From Chloroflexota bacterium (GTDB lineage Bacteria > Chloroflexota > Anaerolineae > Aggregatilineales > J027): a stretch of 64,000 bases of DNA. Shown here piece after piece: positions 29,137 to 36,306 of this stretch. Positions within the stretch are counted from its first letter, which is position 1; each line of letters opens with the position of its first letter. Where the stretch lies: contig JABFGB010000001.1 of assembly GCA_013112715.1 (NCBI GenBank), positions 62,001 to 126,000 of the forward strand, given 5' to 3'. A program made the position numbers and the translations under genes. The notes beneath the pieces are model-generated. The model was not told where the DNA came from and made no database searches. It saw nothing but the letters and a program-made list of their open reading frames with translations.

Positions 29137-30816
29137 ATGACAACACCCAAATGGTGGACAGACGCCGTGTGTTATCAGGTTTACCCCCGTTCTTTTGCAG
29201 ACGGGAATGGTGATGGCATCGGTGATTTGCTTGGTATTATCGAAAAACTAGACTATCTCCAATGGCTGGGAGTCACGGTAATTTGGATCTCCCCCTTTTT
29301 CCCCTCTCCGCAATTTGATGTCGGTTATGACATCTCGAATTATCATGATATAGACCCAGATTATGGCACACTGGCTGATTTTGATCGCCTGATCGCGGAA
29401 GCGCATAAAAGAGGCATTCGCGTGCTGCTCGATCTGGTACTCAACCACACCTCCGATCAGCATGAATGGTTCCAACAATCACGTTTGGGCAAAGACAACC
29501 CCTATCATGACTGGTATGTATGGCGGAGCGGTAAAAACGGCGGGCCACCCAACGACTGGGAGTCTATTTTTGGTGGCTCAGCGTGGCAATACGATGAAAC
29601 ACTAGATCAATACTACTATCACTATTTTTTCAAAGAGCAACCTGATCTCAATTGGCGCAATCCCGCAGTCAAACAGCGTATGTTTGATGAGGTGCGTTTT
29701 TGGCTAGATCGCGGCGTGGATGGCTTCCGCTTGGATGCAATCGGGGCGATTTATGAAGACCCCGATCTGCCGGATGCCAATATAGATATAGGCCTTGAAG
29801 AACTGTTCCTCAATTGGACGATGGGGGTATCGGAAGACACGACCAAACAATTCCGTGCCAAAATTCGCTATCAAGATGATCTACCGGAAAATCACGGCTT
29901 GATGAAAGACTTGCGTGAACTGATTGATACCTATGATGACCGTATTTTGTTGGGTGAAACCGACGATCCACGTTATTACGGGGATGGCACAAATGAACTC
30001 CATTCCGTGTTTAATTTTGACATCCTGCGCTTCCAAAAGGATGAAAATTTACAGGCCAGCCAGATTCGGCAAAAATTGGCAGACCGAGCCAAGTTGTTGC
30101 CGAAGGGAGCGTGGGAATGCAACACGGTGGGTAATCATGATATAACGCGCTCATTCACCTTCTACGGGGATGATCGCAGTCGGCATCAGGTTGCGCTGGC
30201 AATGGTGACACTGCTGCGAGGGACGCCCGTATTTTATTATGGCGAAGAAATCGGTATGACCGATTATCTTATGCAGGAGATCGAATGGTTTAAGGACAAT
30301 CTTGGCGTATGGATTTATGGGGTGTTGCAGCTCAAGCGCCAGCTTTCGCCCGAAAAAGCACTGGCCTTTGCGAATATTATGGGACGCGACAAATGCCGCA
30401 CCCCCATGCAGTGGCGAAACGCACCTAACGCTGGTTTTTCGCCTGCTGATATCAATACATGGCTGCCTGTCAACCCAAATTATGCGAAGGGTATCAATGT
30501 GGAGGACCAGCGCGAAAATCCTGATTCGGCGCTGAATTATCTACGTCGTCTCATCCAAGTGCGACAAGCCTATGAAGCACTCCGTCAAGGGGAACTCGTG
30601 ATGCTGGATACCGACGATGTATTGTCGTTCTGGCGCAAAACTCCGCAACAGAATTGTTTCATTGCCCTCAATATGTCTAACCAACCAACGAGCCTGCAAC
30701 TCGAAAAACAGGCCGTTCGCCAAATTTTCTCGACCCACTCACGCAGTAGTGAATCCGATAATTTGGCTGTGCTCAAACTTCATCCCTATGAGGTATACAT
30801 CGGCATCCAAGAATAA
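29137..30816 (+). CDS. GH13 alpha-glucosidase (oligo-1,6-glucosidase type)
   Basis: The 559-residue cytoplasmic enzyme of the alpha-amylase family hydrolyses alpha-glucosidic bonds of short oligosaccharides. Catalytic residues are visible: nucleophile Asp200 in GFRLDAIG, acid/base Glu274 in LLGETDD and the transition-state Asp335 in NHDITR. The N-terminal DAVCYQVYPRSFADGNGDGIGDL and the domain B region match oligo-1,6-glucosidase/alpha-glucosidase enzymes. No signal peptide is seen. The start follows AAAGG. It converges on a MalEFG-type operon (30885-36060) across a terminator, so the importer probably brings in alpha-glucosides for this enzyme. Trehalose or sucrose specificity cannot be excluded. 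Confidence 0.9.
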   Translation: MTTPKWWTDAVCYQVYPRSFADGNGDGIGDLLGIIEKLDYLQWLGVTVIWISPFFPSPQFDVGYDISNYHDIDPDYGTLADFDRLIAEAHKRGIRVLLDLVLNHTSDQHEWFQQSRLGKDNPYHDWYVWRSGKNGGPPNDWESIFGGSAWQYDETLDQYYYHYFFKEQPDLNWRNPAVKQRMFDEVRFWLDRGVDGFRLDAIGAIYEDPDLPDANIDIGLEELFLNWTMGVSEDTTKQFRAKIRYQDDLPENHGLMKDLRELIDTYDDRILLGETDDPRYYGDGTNELHSVFNFDILRFQKDENLQASQIRQKLADRAKLLPKGAWECNTVGNHDITRSFTFYGDDRSRHQVALAMVTLLRGTPVFYYGEEIGMTDYLMQEIEWFKDNLGVWIYGVLQLKRQLSPEKALAFANIMGRDKCRTPMQWRNAPNAGFSPADINTWLPVNPNYAKGINVEDQRENPDSALNYLRRLIQVRQAYEALRQGELVMLDTDDVLSFWRKTPQQNCFIALNMSNQPTSLQLEKQAVRQIFSTHSRSSESDNLAVLKLHPYEVYIGIQE

Positions 30817-30884: not shown

Positions 30885-31886
30885 TTAGCCCTTGACCGAG
30901 CCGAGTGTCAGACCACCCACCAACCAGCGCGAGCTATAGAGGAACAAGATCAATACCGGAATGGTAATGAGTACGGAACCCGCTGCAAACGTTCCCCACT
31001 GTGTTTGGAATTGAAGGATAAGCGAGTTCAATCCAAGCGGCCATGTCTGCATGACCTCCGCTTTCAGGATAACATTGGCGACCATATATTCATTCCACGC
31101 ACTGAGGAAGTTGAACAAAAAGATGATGGCGAGTGCAGGAGCAGACAGCGGCAAAATCACCCGCCAGAAGGCCATCATACGGGTTGCGCCATCCACCATC
31201 GCGGCTTCCTCTAGGTCAAAGGGAATCGTGTCATAGTAGCCACGCAAAATCCAGATGGATAGTGGAATGGCGGTGGTGGTATAGGCCAGTGCCAAACCCA
31301 GCACATTGTTCGTCAGATTTAAGCGGGCCACAATGATGTAAATCGGAATCAACAGCATCCCGGCGGGAATCATCTGCGTGGACAGCAGCAGGAACAACCC
31401 CAAATTACGTCCGGGGAACTTCCAACGCGAGAAGGCATAGGCACTAGTCGCAGCCACCACCACACCGAGCAACGCCACCGAAACCGTAATGATGAGGCTG
31501 TTCCATACCCATAGGCCAAAATCATGTTCGGTGAATAGTTGTTCGTAGGAATTTAAATTTGCACCATCGGGAATGATCGCCAGCGAGGTTGAAAGGAGAT
31601 TTTGGGCAGGACGTAGTGAAATCGTCACCACACGCGAGAGGGGGTACAGGGTGAGAATGCAGTAGAAAATCAGGAAACCGTGCGTTGGGTAAGCCACCGC
31701 AATCGCCAGCCAAACAGCGCCACCCGCTATAAACAGATTACTGTTGATTAGCGCCAACACGAGTCCCAAGATAAGGATAACGATGCTGCCAATCCCACGC
31801 CCACGCCGATACCACAAGGTCGAGGGTGTTTCGAATTCACGGGTTTCCCAAAAGCGTTTTTTCCAATCTTGCGATATTGTGGTCAT
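30885..31886 (-). CDS. malG: MalG-type sugar ABC permease (alpha-glucoside system)
   Basis: This 333-residue binding-protein-dependent permease has six or more TM segments, including an N-terminal pair (GSIVILILGLVLALINS and LFIAGGAVWLAIAV) and the BPD_transp_1 core at about 115-325. The ATPase-docking EAA loop is visible in EEAAMVDGATRMMAFWRVILP. The ending VGGLTLGSVKG is typical for MalG. It pairs with the unusual SH3b-loaded MalF at 31883; the genes overlap by four bases (ATGA). The ATPase is not encoded here. The substrate is inferred as alpha-glucoside from the neighbouring GH13 enzyme. Confidence 0.9.
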   Translation of the reverse strand: MTTISQDWKKRFWETREFETPSTLWYRRGRGIGSIVILILGLVLALINSNLFIAGGAVWLAIAVAYPTHGFLIFYCILTLYPLSRVVTISLRPAQNLLSTSLAIIPDGANLNSYEQLFTEHDFGLWVWNSLIITVSVALLGVVVAATSAYAFSRWKFPGRNLGLFLLLSTQMIPAGMLLIPIYIIVARLNLTNNVLGLALAYTTTAIPLSIWILRGYYDTIPFDLEEAAMVDGATRMMAFWRVILPLSAPALAIIFLFNFLSAWNEYMVANVILKAEVMQTWPLGLNSLILQFQTQWGTFAAGSVLITIPVLILFLYSSRWLVGGLTLGSVKG

Positions 31887-34642
31887 TTTTCATAGATTCC
31901 TTTCAATGCGCCGCTTTGAGTGATCCAGACCGAAGCAAACAAGATGAGGACGACAAAAATCACCAGTGAGAAGGCCGCCGCAAAGCCGAGTTGGAATTGC
32001 CCGTTCGCGCCGAATGCTGCGTTGTAGAGTGCCGTCACCAAAATATTGGTGCTTTCGTTTGGTTCACCCCCTGTAATCAAAAAGATGACATTGAAGTTAT
32101 TAAATGTCCATATCACGTCCAACGTGACGATAGGCACCGCTACCGGACGGATAAGCGGAACCGTGATATGCTTAAAACGCTCAAAGGCATTCGCCCCATC
32201 CATCGAGGCCGCTTCATAATAATCCGGTGCAATGGATTGCAGCCCACCCAACAGCGTCACCAGATAGAAGGGGACACCCAACCAGATATTGACAAATGTC
32301 ACCGCGACTAATGCTGGTGTAGGTCTAAAGAGCCACTGGACAGGTTCAAAACCAAGCTCTTGGACAAGGGCATTGACAAAGCCGAATTGGAAGTTGAATT
32401 CCCCTCGCCATGCCAGCGCGATAATCACCTGTGGAATAGCCCACGGCAGAATGATAATGGCACGATAGATACCTGTAAATTTCAGGTCTTTTTGATTGAG
32501 GATCAGCGCCAAAATCATGCCGAAAATCAGATGGAACAGGACATTAAAGGATGTCCAAATCAATGTAGTGCGCATCAAACGCGGAAAGGTTGAATTTTCC
32601 GTTTGCAGCAAGCGCCCCCAGCCCAAAATTTCACCTGTTTCGGGGTCTTCATCCACAAACACCCGTTTAAGGTTGTTCCAGCCATATTCCAAGCTATAGA
32701 GGACGATCTCGCGGTCGGTTGTCACACGCTGTTCCGGCACGGCTTCGACCCAACCCACAAGGCCCGCTTCGGTACGGATTTGATGCCAATAGCGCTGTTC
32801 TTCGTCTTGCGGGGTAACGGTAATACCGCTGGCGACTTCACCCAATGTTTCAGAGAGACGGGAGGGTTCGGTGTGCAGGAGGCCATCTTCAGAATTTGTA
32901 AAAATTGACCGCACATCAGCGGGTTCAGCATTCACCCATCCAAGCAAGCGAGCCTCGTCACGAGTTTGGACTTGATACCAAGGAGCATCCTGTGTGCTAA
33001 CCACATTCAGGTCAGTATCTTCGGCAAAGGTGGTTACGATTTCACTGGTATCGTTAAAGGCGGCATAGGCGTTGATTTCGGTAGGGGCCGCATAACGTTC
33101 GATCACACTGTCTGGCTCGATATTGGTAAAGCCAGAGGTGCCATCTTCTAGGCGCAGTTCATACCAAGTTAATTCGCCCGTATCGAATTCCTCAACCTGT
33201 GTGCCGCCGGGCAAGGTGGCGACGACCAGATTGCTCTCCAAATCGGCAATTAGGGGGGTAGTGTCTGGGGCGATCACAATATCCGTAAATGCTTCAGGGG
33301 TCGCTTGTATCCATCCTTTGACATTTTGATCGGTCTGAACGTAGTACCAGATGGTGTCCTCAACCGTCGTGCTGCTGAGGTTGACCACTAATTCACCGGT
33401 TTCAACACGGCCCAGTACCTCCACATCCCCACCTTCAGCAGTGCTCAAGATGTCTTGTGATTCTAGGATTTCAAAGGCCTCGACAGTCTCTGGTTGTACA
33501 TTGACCCAACCGCGTTGGCCGCTGAGATCACTGACCTCGTACCAAGTTTCGGTTTGGCGGCTAGCGATACGCGCATTTTGATCGGCAGGGAGAGTGACGG
33601 CCTGTTCCGACAAATAGTTAGCTTCACTAAAAAGCGGAATATCTTCTGCCGGATGATATAGCTCAGTAACGGTTAATGCCACATTCACCCAAGCTGTGCC
33701 TTCGGGTGTCTCAACTTCGTACCAAGTGAGGGGTTGGTTACGCAGCATATTGACTTCTTGGGCGGCGCTGATTTCGCCGACAACCTCACTGTCAGTGCTT
33801 TGGTCATCATACAGCGTCAAAGTCTCAGCCGGGATATAGAGATTGGCCTGACGTGGTTCTGCTGTCACCCAGCCAACCGTGCCATCGGCGGTTTCGATTT
33901 GATACCACATCTCACTTTCGCGTTTGACCAAGCGGACTTGTTCACCCGAGGCCACGCTTCCGACGACCTCACCGCTCGCCGCTGATTCTTCGTACACGTC
34001 TCCACCTGCGGACATGAAAAAGGTGCGGTCTGGAATCCAGCCCACCTCGCCGTCGGGCGTTTTGATTTCCCACCAGTCACGCTCATCTTGAACTTTGAGA
34101 GCAGCTTCAGCCTCGCGTTGACGTTGAATACAGGCAGCATCCAATGGATTACAGACCGTGCCCGTTTCAGAGACAGCAAAACCCGTTAGGGCCGTATACC
34201 CGACCGCTTTCGAACGACCCGTCACGCGGACTTCATCGCCGTTCTGTAATGTAAAAGCGACCTCCGCCGTTTCAGATGGTTCGACCCGTACCGGAATTTC
34301 ATCCAGATTGATGTTCACATCGGCGTTGAGCGCCGCCTGTCCAAGTGAACAGGGCGCATTGGTAATATTTTCGTCGGGTATATAACAGGAAATGGTCTTG
34401 AGGCGTAAATCCGAAAAGGCGAGTTGAATGTTGAAAATGAAAGGATAGACCGTAAAGATCGCCAATGCAATGACCGCCGGAGCCACCAATGTAAAAGGCA
34501 ACGCATACTTCGTCTTGAAAACTCTGGTGAGTAAGAAGTAGAGTGCAGGCTCAAGAATAATAATTCCGAGGACGGTTATACCTATCAGCGGCAGCAGATC
34601 AAGCAAGCGCTCTACGGCAATGTCAAATGTCAAGCCTTGCAT
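31883..34642 (-). CDS. MalF-type permease with a large eight-repeat SH3b insertion
   Basis: The 919-residue permease has two N-terminal TM helices (about 15-75), an extracytoplasmic region of about 560 residues, then the permease core TMs (about 690-915) with the EAA loop YYEAASMDGANAFERFKHI near residue 809. Ordinary MalF has only about 180 residues at this place (the P2 loop that touches MalE). Here the loop contains eight SH3b-like repeats, each ending in a WYxV..G..GWV..P pattern, for example WWEIKTPDGEVGW, WYQIETADGTVGWV, WYEVETPEGTAWV, WYEVSDLSGQRGWV, WYYVQTDQNVKGWI, WYELRLEDGTSGF, WYQVQTRDEARLLGWV and YWHQIRTEAGLVGWV. The ATG at 34642 follows AGGGA; a GTG just before it is not needed. 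The insertion may hold the binding protein or the wall. Confidence 0.92.
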   Translation of the reverse strand: MQGLTFDIAVERLLDLLPLIGITVLGIIILEPALYFLLTRVFKTKYALPFTLVAPAVIALAIFTVYPFIFNIQLAFSDLRLKTISCYIPDENITNAPCSLGQAALNADVNINLDEIPVRVEPSETAEVAFTLQNGDEVRVTGRSKAVGYTALTGFAVSETGTVCNPLDAACIQRQREAEAALKVQDERDWWEIKTPDGEVGWIPDRTFFMSAGGDVYEESAASGEVVGSVASGEQVRLVKRESEMWYQIETADGTVGWVTAEPRQANLYIPAETLTLYDDQSTDSEVVGEISAAQEVNMLRNQPLTWYEVETPEGTAWVNVALTVTELYHPAEDIPLFSEANYLSEQAVTLPADQNARIASRQTETWYEVSDLSGQRGWVNVQPETVEAFEILESQDILSTAEGGDVEVLGRVETGELVVNLSSTTVEDTIWYYVQTDQNVKGWIQATPEAFTDIVIAPDTTPLIADLESNLVVATLPGGTQVEEFDTGELTWYELRLEDGTSGFTNIEPDSVIERYAAPTEINAYAAFNDTSEIVTTFAEDTDLNVVSTQDAPWYQVQTRDEARLLGWVNAEPADVRSIFTNSEDGLLHTEPSRLSETLGEVASGITVTPQDEEQRYWHQIRTEAGLVGWVEAVPEQRVTTDREIVLYSLEYGWNNLKRVFVDEDPETGEILGWGRLLQTENSTFPRLMRTTLIWTSFNVLFHLIFGMILALILNQKDLKFTGIYRAIIILPWAIPQVIIALAWRGEFNFQFGFVNALVQELGFEPVQWLFRPTPALVAVTFVNIWLGVPFYLVTLLGGLQSIAPDYYEAASMDGANAFERFKHITVPLIRPVAVPIVTLDVIWTFNNFNVIFLITGGEPNESTNILVTALYNAAFGANGQFQLGFAAAFSLVIFVVLILFASVWITQSGALKGIYEK

Positions 34643-34683
34643 CACAAATTCCCTATTCTATAGTTCCCTTAACTCTAAACTCG

Positions 34684-34761: not shown

Positions 34762-36060
34762 TTACTGCAAGTCAGCAATGCAGGTTTCAGCGAAAGCCTG
34801 TGCGTTGGCACCAGCCTCAACGGGTGTTTCACTCCCACTCATCACGGCCTGATATTCCTGCGTAATGGCGTCGAAAATGCAGCGCATTTCAACATTGACG
34901 GGTTGAGGCACGCCGGTTGAAAGGGCGGCGGCGCTCTCACCAACTAGGCGATCTTCCGCAATCGAGGGGTCGTCAAATGCCGCGAGCAATCCGGGCAAAC
35001 GGCCTTGAGTAACGGTATAGCCGAGGACGGTGGGGACATCGGTGGTGTACCACTTGAGGAATTCAACCACCACATCCAGCTTATCGCCTTCGGTCGCGGC
35101 GGGGATCATCGCATAGGTACCAGCCACTAGGGGGGCGGGTTGACCACCTTCGAACATCGGCCATGGGGCCAGACCAATATTTTCTTCACCGAGGGTTGCA
35201 ATCATCCCGGTCTCACCACCGAGGCTCCAGTCACCATTGATGGTCATGGCAGCTTTGCCTTCTTTGAACAGACCGTCAAGACAGTTGTAATCGCATTCGC
35301 TGGAAGTCACGCCCAATTCTTTGAAACTCGCCAAGAGTTCGAGGGTCTTGATGAGGGAGTCGTTATTGAGGTCGGGGGTCACACCATCGGCTGCGAAACC
35401 AACAAAGGGAACGCCATCGGGGTTAATCGCCTGCATCCATGGGAGCACCCAGAAGCTCTCGCCTTGATGGAATAGGAAGGGGGTGAAGCCTTCAACATCG
35501 GCGTTGTCGGCGGCCAATTGAGCACTCATTTCGATCAGTTCTTCAACGGTCGCGGGTGGGGTTTCAACATATTGCTTGTTGTAGATCAGCATCAGGTGGT
35601 TGCCTGCGCTGAAGGGAATACCCCATGTTTGACCATCGAGCACGACGGTGTTCAGATAGGCTTCCATATCAAACAATTCGTCAAGCGGTTGGACCAAACC
35701 AGCCTCGGTGAAGGGTCCAGCATGGTCAGCAACTGTCCATAGGAAATCTGGCAAACCTTCACCCGCCAATGCTGCGGATTGCATATTTTGACGCAGTTCT
35801 TCCACATCCAATGTTTCAATGGTCAGGGTTGAACCGGGAGCATTTTCAGCCGCCCAAGCGTCAAATGCCTCTATCATTGCGGTATCGGTGTGATAGGTCT
35901 CAGATTCTTTTGACCACATCAACAGGTCAACAGCAGGAAGTTGAGCATGATTAGAATTAGTGGAAGGGACTGAATCGGCAGCCATTGAGGGGACAATGGC
36001 CGTAACAAGAATGATCACAACCAATGTTGCGATGCCTAAATACTTAAAAGATTTATTCAT
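34762..36060 (-). CDS. malE: MalE-type sugar-binding lipoprotein or exported protein (alpha-glucoside system)
   Basis: The 432-residue solute-binding protein has a signal peptide (YLGIATLVVIILVTAIVPSMAA). The mature part fits the family 1 extracellular sugar-binding fold: LLMWSKESETYHTDTAMIEAF near the start, WGIPFSAGNHLMLIYNK around residues 140-156 and AAMTINGDWSLGG near 275. It delivers sugar to the MalF/MalG pair encoded downstream. No lipobox Cys is obvious, so anchoring is uncertain. An AAAGGA site precedes the ATG. It is the first gene of the minus-strand operon and is followed by a strong stem-loop before malF. Confidence 0.9.
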   Translation of the reverse strand: MNKSFKYLGIATLVVIILVTAIVPSMAADSVPSTNSNHAQLPAVDLLMWSKESETYHTDTAMIEAFDAWAAENAPGSTLTIETLDVEELRQNMQSAALAGEGLPDFLWTVADHAGPFTEAGLVQPLDELFDMEAYLNTVVLDGQTWGIPFSAGNHLMLIYNKQYVETPPATVEELIEMSAQLAADNADVEGFTPFLFHQGESFWVLPWMQAINPDGVPFVGFAADGVTPDLNNDSLIKTLELLASFKELGVTSSECDYNCLDGLFKEGKAAMTINGDWSLGGETGMIATLGEENIGLAPWPMFEGGQPAPLVAGTYAMIPAATEGDKLDVVVEFLKWYTTDVPTVLGYTVTQGRLPGLLAAFDDPSIAEDRLVGESAAALSTGVPQPVNVEMRCIFDAITQEYQAVMSGSETPVEAGANAQAFAETCIADLQ

Positions 36061-36306
36061 TTGAGATGTCCTTTTACATGGTTGTAGACAACTGGCCTAC
36101 GAAATACACTAAGAGATTACCACACCCTCGGCAATTCTGCACGGACAATTGGCATCAATTTTTGGTGTCATTTATGCACTTGAAGCAGCCTCTATTTAGG
36201 GTAAAACGTTTCCCATAAATCCAGAACAGGTCTCCGCGCTCGAGGTAAATTTTTGATCTAGCTGCGGGGCGGCTATAATCGGCCCATCCATGAAAGGGGT
36301 GGGGCC

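Follow-up and report, generated by a model that had tools for sequence, protein, structure and literature searches.

A chain of SH3b-like units at the P2 position of a MalF-type sugar permease in a small group of Chloroflexota

The operon and its setting

The window, that is the whole stretch of 64,000 nucleotides that was analysed, carries on its reverse strand a sugar importer operon with the order binding protein, MalF-type permease and MalG-type permease, and next to it, on the forward strand, a gene for a carbohydrate-active enzyme:

34762..36060, (-), MalE-type solute-binding protein, 432 aa, with a plain signal peptide and no lipobox
31883..34645, (-), MalF-type permease with an SH3b array, 920 aa, an open reading frame with a GTG start and ATG as the next codon
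30885..31886, (-), MalG-type partner permease, 333 aa, its start and the malF stop sharing 4 nt (ATGA)
29137..30816, (+), GH13 alpha-glucosidase-type enzyme adjoining the operon and kept there in the genus

A GH94 carbohydrate enzyme (Pfam) is also encoded near the operon, and it is only by similarity and by the neighbouring GH13 gene that maltose is suggested as the substrate. No gene for a cognate ATPase adjoins the operon; a UgpC/MsiK-type ATPase scoring above the cut-off is found elsewhere in the genome (contig C17), and in many Gram-positives the ATPase of an importer is encoded away from the operon.

As regards the cell envelope, Lgt is present in the host genome and no Omp85 was found in it. 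Motif inspection of the SBP_bac_1 proteins of the genome gave a credible lipobox in 2 of 30, the protein of this operon being among those without, and unlipidated binding proteins predominate in this genome (loci L155-L184) despite Lgt and without Omp85. In Gram-positives a lipid anchor or a tether to the translocator holds the solute-binding proteins (PMC8025302), and Chloroflexota are considered monoderm and without BAM genes, diderm-like envelopes having been seen in some of them (PMC13319060).

Reading frame and domain layout of the permease

From the GTG start (window position 34645) the permease has 920 aa, and from the ATG (34642) it would have 919 aa. Two TM helices are followed by eight SH3b units (residues ~108-640) and then by the MalF-type core, the parts being arranged as follows:

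34433..34606, (-), TM1 (residues 14-32) and TM2 (residues 53-71), from hydropathy and alignment
34325..34396, (-), short Cys loop, residues 84-107, with C87 and C99-x-L101 also kept in array-less orthologs (alignment)
34010..34324, (-), SH3b unit 1, residues 108-212, the most conserved, with an inserted helix (170-184, predicted), a Cys pair and VQDERDWW
33836..34009, (-), SH3b unit 2, residues 213-270, HMM 58.8 bits, model pLDDT 75-90
33668..33835, (-), SH3b unit 3, residues 271-326, HMM 42.1 bits, model pLDDT 75-90
33482..33667, (-), SH3b unit 4, residues 327-388, HMM 37.6 bits, without counterpart in six-unit orthologs (alignment gap)
33290..33481, (-), SH3b unit 5, residues 389-452, HMM 16.1 bits, the weakest
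33110..33289, (-), SH3b unit 6, residues 453-512, HMM 24.9 bits
32915..33109, (-), SH3b unit 7, residues 513-577, HMM 34.3 bits, largely absent from six-unit orthologs
32726..32914, (-), SH3b unit 8, residues 578-640, HMM 27.8 bits
32576..32725, (-), conserved linker returning to the membrane, residues 641-690, LYSLEYGWNNLKRVF, 72-74% identical across families
31886..32575, (-), permease core with five TMs and the EAA loop (BPD_transp_1 707-906, hydropathy)

Hydropathy gives the two N-terminal TM helices that an earlier note on this DNA had claimed (14-32 and 53-71), none in residues 72-697 and then five, for 7 predicted in total. The loop between TM1 and TM2 is basic (TRVFKTK), which by the positive-inside tendency places the array on the outside. 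In the core, BPD_transp_1 is matched at residues 707-906 (Pfam, E 5.8e-15, 55.9 bits against a cut-off of 26.4), and the EAA loop (residues 809-834, YYEAASMDGANAFERFKHITVPLIRP) lies between late TMs and is conserved in the alignment with orthologs. The best named family, the equivalog MalF PRK10999, reaches 146.8 bits, far under its cut-off of 392, so that the label used here is ‘MalF-type’ and identity with the maltose MalF is not proven.

The frame contains no stop, and both permease halves are conserved together with the array; two genes fused by read-through are therefore ruled out, in agreement with the single continuous gene that had been claimed. An assembly chimera is ruled out as well, because the same 920-aa protein, 95-96% identical, occurs in three other congeneric assemblies, matched to CFX5 (QMIT01000004), MAG_03 (JAIOHL010000273) and DTUCFX7 (JAJTXY010000004).

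Cys99-x-Leu101 and Leu649-Tyr650 flank the array, and at this point the short orthologs (~370 aa, families f2 and f8) are continuous in the alignment and read C-Y-S-P...C-x-L-D-H-L-Y-G-L-D-Y. With the borders set from these short orthologs, the insert, given previously as ~560 residues, measures ~547. The core profile aligns with residues 277-500 of E. coli MalF (PDB 2r6g chain F, E 8.9e-35) and, since this alignment starts at residue 277 and the array follows the second TM and precedes the first TM of the conserved core, the array occupies the place of the MalF P2 loop, as had been supposed. In E. coli MalF, P2 is a single domain of ~180 residues. Both ends of the array being tied to the permease face, its middle units would have to extend furthest out.

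The SH3b units

Over the whole permease the SH3_3 family scores E 3.8e-40 and 136.3 bits against a cut-off of 27 (Pfam); only three stretches pass alone, and the remaining units were therefore tested with an independent HMM. This model, built only from array units of the orthologs of the other family, matched all eight units (16 to 59 bits) and gave no match at E<=10 in 20 shuffles of the insert, which confirms the eight SH3b-like repeats first noticed in the sequence. Unit 1, of ~105 aa, is larger than the others and has a helix and two extra cysteines. The array contains 99 D/E and 30 K/R (net -69), and its D/E content is 18% against 4-12% in the other SH3b proteins of the same genome that were read. 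An alignment mixing the array with other SH3b arrays of the genome was poor and was left out of the results.

A model of units 1-3 (13-row alignment) is all beta, with pLDDT 75-90 over units 2-3, and the model of the full-length permease has pLDDT 37 (9-row alignment). In Foldseek the top matches of the units 1-3 model are the SH3b-bearing YrvJ, dipeptidyl-peptidase VI and an endolysin, together with hybrid tudors, and no MalF chain is present among the 50 best matches. The TM-scores are low, so that the match to an SH3-like fold is suggestive of such a fold for the modelled units and not proof of it. Where the earlier note had named an ordinary single P2 fold as the outcome that would refute it, the profile searches give SH3b units instead.

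In the same genome SH3b units are found at the C-terminus of Ser/Thr kinases (L214:2-1786 (+) and L217:379-3180 (+), the second also with an FGE-sulfatase domain), which indicates that SH3b modules serve several membrane systems of this organism.

Distribution, origin and conservation

The search for MalF proteins of more than 800 residues with the same insertion in other Chloroflexota, suggested earlier, found them: besides the 920-aa forms, a second family of the order (f4) has orthologs of 822, 819 and 815 aa, each with six units. Another f4 genome (G030) has just the C-terminal 236 residues of the ortholog, at a contig edge, and its array region is not seen. Altogether, 154 genomes of the order yielded 7 complete array forms and this one fragment; they belong to genus g1, where 4 of 5 species have the array, and to four genera of f4. 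No further array form was found in evenly drawn sets from the class (396 genomes) and the phylum (400), nor when 84,980 species genomes were scanned for the patterns of two peptides, one from unit 1, a scan that picks up close copies only, and the viral contigs searched gave no relatives. Judged by the genomes searched, the trait is rare and confined to a small group of Chloroflexota.

In a tree of the permease core all array forms make up one clade (support 100/98) beside the array-less clade of f2 and f8, from which we conclude that the array arose once. Genus g1 carries it and the other genera of its family (f1) do not, so that transfer or repeated loss is likely to lie behind the distribution over g1 and f4. 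Genome G002, a congener without the gene, still matches the window on the helicase side (78% DNA identity), but synteny ends at window position 36271, leaving no clean empty site. A further MalF-type relative without the array, from genome G051 (L045:3233-4756 (+)), is 507 aa long, has several additional TMs at its N-terminus and is accompanied by a binding protein with a lipobox.

Among four congeners dN/dS is 0.06-0.13 in the insert and 0.00-0.016 in the core, by simple Nei-Gojobori counts on a small sample. Values of this size in the insert point to purifying selection, and on these counts the array is kept by selection, less tightly than the core. Conservation within the array is uneven. 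Across families, unit 1 is 43-49% identical, with the QDERDWW block kept in both. In the middle units identity falls to 13-42% over the alignable columns, and the f4 orthologs, with 6 units instead of 8, have nothing that fully matches units 4 and 7. By alignment, unit 1 and the re-entry linker are the conserved parts and the middle is variable.

The binding proteins diverge along the same line, being ~70% alike among array operons and 38% like those of array-less relatives, with a mature N-terminus ~15 residues longer than in the latter.

Other large inserts have been observed in permeases of these and other bacteria. A MalG-type permease in G002, which is congeneric with the host, is 943 aa long (L050:5683-8514 (-)) and has its core split by an insert of ~570 residues (roughly 223-790) with coiled-coil-like stretches and no Pfam family, unrelated to SH3b. 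The host genome itself encodes a GlnP-type permease of 677 aa (contig C14, L228:191-2224 (+)), in which ~410 residues without a Pfam match separate the first TM from the second, and two proteins with first loops of ~260-275 residues (L233:3009-4535, UgpE/MalG type, and L226:1058-2707). In a Myxococcota MAG, a MalF-type permease of 661 aa (L117:4747-6732 (+)) has ~360 extra N-terminal residues without a Pfam family.

Possible roles of the array

The reading that we favour, with a probability of about 0.4, is that the array is a P2-like docking or retention arm for the unanchored binding protein. The system would be a type I sugar ABC importer with an ATPase supplied from elsewhere, in which the SH3b arm would replace the P2 loop of E. 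coli, leaving the permease at its outer face and re-entering there. The docking surface may be made by unit 1 and the linker, packed against the permease, and the middle units may provide the reach by which the soluble binding protein is held close to the translocator, the cell having no Omp85 outer membrane. This reading is favoured by the P2 position, by the conserved unit 1 and linker, by the unanchored binding protein and by the co-divergence of the binding protein; the P2 loop of E. coli reportedly contacts MalE throughout the cycle (Daus 2009, cited in PMC3328499). Against it, ~25 other importers of the genome have unlipidated binding proteins and no SH3b-bearing permease. The operons of the array-less orthologs also have unlipidated binding proteins, and therefore the array is not required for retention; for the same reason a lipobox difference was rejected as the cause of the array. 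Simple electrostatic capture is disfavoured, since the array (net -69) and the binding protein (net -48) are both acidic. To go one step further, the SH3b array may be a third means, besides lipid anchoring and fusion of the substrate-binding domain, of keeping an unlipidated soluble binding protein at the importer: carried by the permease, it would have taken over the P2 role in a bacterium that has no BAM-type outer membrane. We consider this doubtful.

SH3b domains are best known as wall-binding modules. The units could act like those of wall enzymes and, by binding peptidoglycan or another envelope layer, keep the importer in place beneath a wall or sheath. The weak matches to the wall-binding GW and Ent families (Pfam/NCBIfam), the SH3b-bearing proteins among the Foldseek matches, low as their TM-scores are, and the 80 SH3_3 matches in the host genome, nearly all of them in other proteins, go in this direction. 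However, the acidity of the array lowers the likelihood that it binds anionic wall polymers, the other importers of the genome have no array and the middle units diverge fast, so that we regard a wall anchor as rather unlikely.

The rarity of the array, its single origin, its changing unit number and its variable middle, as well as the large unrelated loops in other permeases of these bacteria, would also suit an ornament or spacer, made of SH3b units that moved into a loop able to tolerate them and stay folded under selection with no specific ligand. The dN/dS of the insert, and unit 1 with its QDERDWW block kept across two families, speak against this, and we hold it to be unlikely. Capture of the imported oligo- or polysaccharide, by which the array would concentrate sugar at the translocator like a carbohydrate-binding module, is quite improbable, because in spite of the nearby GH13 and GH94 genes and the aromatic-rich units (WY...GW) the array matches no carbohydrate-binding module family in Pfam and SH3b is not usually a sugar-binding family.

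The array bears on importers that are regarded as textbook machines, with a MalE-docking loop commonly pictured as a single compact domain. With an SH3b chain at that loop, gained once and kept by selection on the present evidence, this natural variant offers a direct test of the role of the loop, and it points to the question of how Chloroflexota retain binding proteins with no lipid anchor in cells without an Omp85-type outer membrane.

Comparison with known systems

The array permease varies a well-known importer type and is not a new kind of system; our literature search, which covered few subscription journals, found no description of SH3 domains in MalF or other sugar permeases. E. coli MalF of the MalFGK2 complex (2r6g chain F) shares with it the core, an extra N-terminal TM, a large extracytoplasmic insert just before the core and an operon with MalE and MalG types, but has one P2 domain in place of 6-8 SH3b units and 8 TMs against the 7 predicted here. 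The array-less orthologs of ~370 aa have a core 59-62% identical, the same operon order and the Cys loop, which in them leads straight into LYGLDYA without SH3b units. The array units score as SH3_3 (PF08239) and give a beta-rich model that is suggestive of an SH3-like fold; what sets them apart is their place within the loop of a polytopic permease, fixed at both ends, and an acidity above that of other SH3b proteins in this genome. MalE has reportedly been fused to MalF (Licht 2019, cited in PMC7756565), and in the importer GlnPQ binding domains are carried on the permease (PMC8025302). In both of these, as here, the translocator polypeptide itself carries extracytoplasmic domains close to the entry; the domains of the array, however, are not solute-binding, no SBP family being matched in the insert (Pfam), and the binding protein is encoded by a separate gene.
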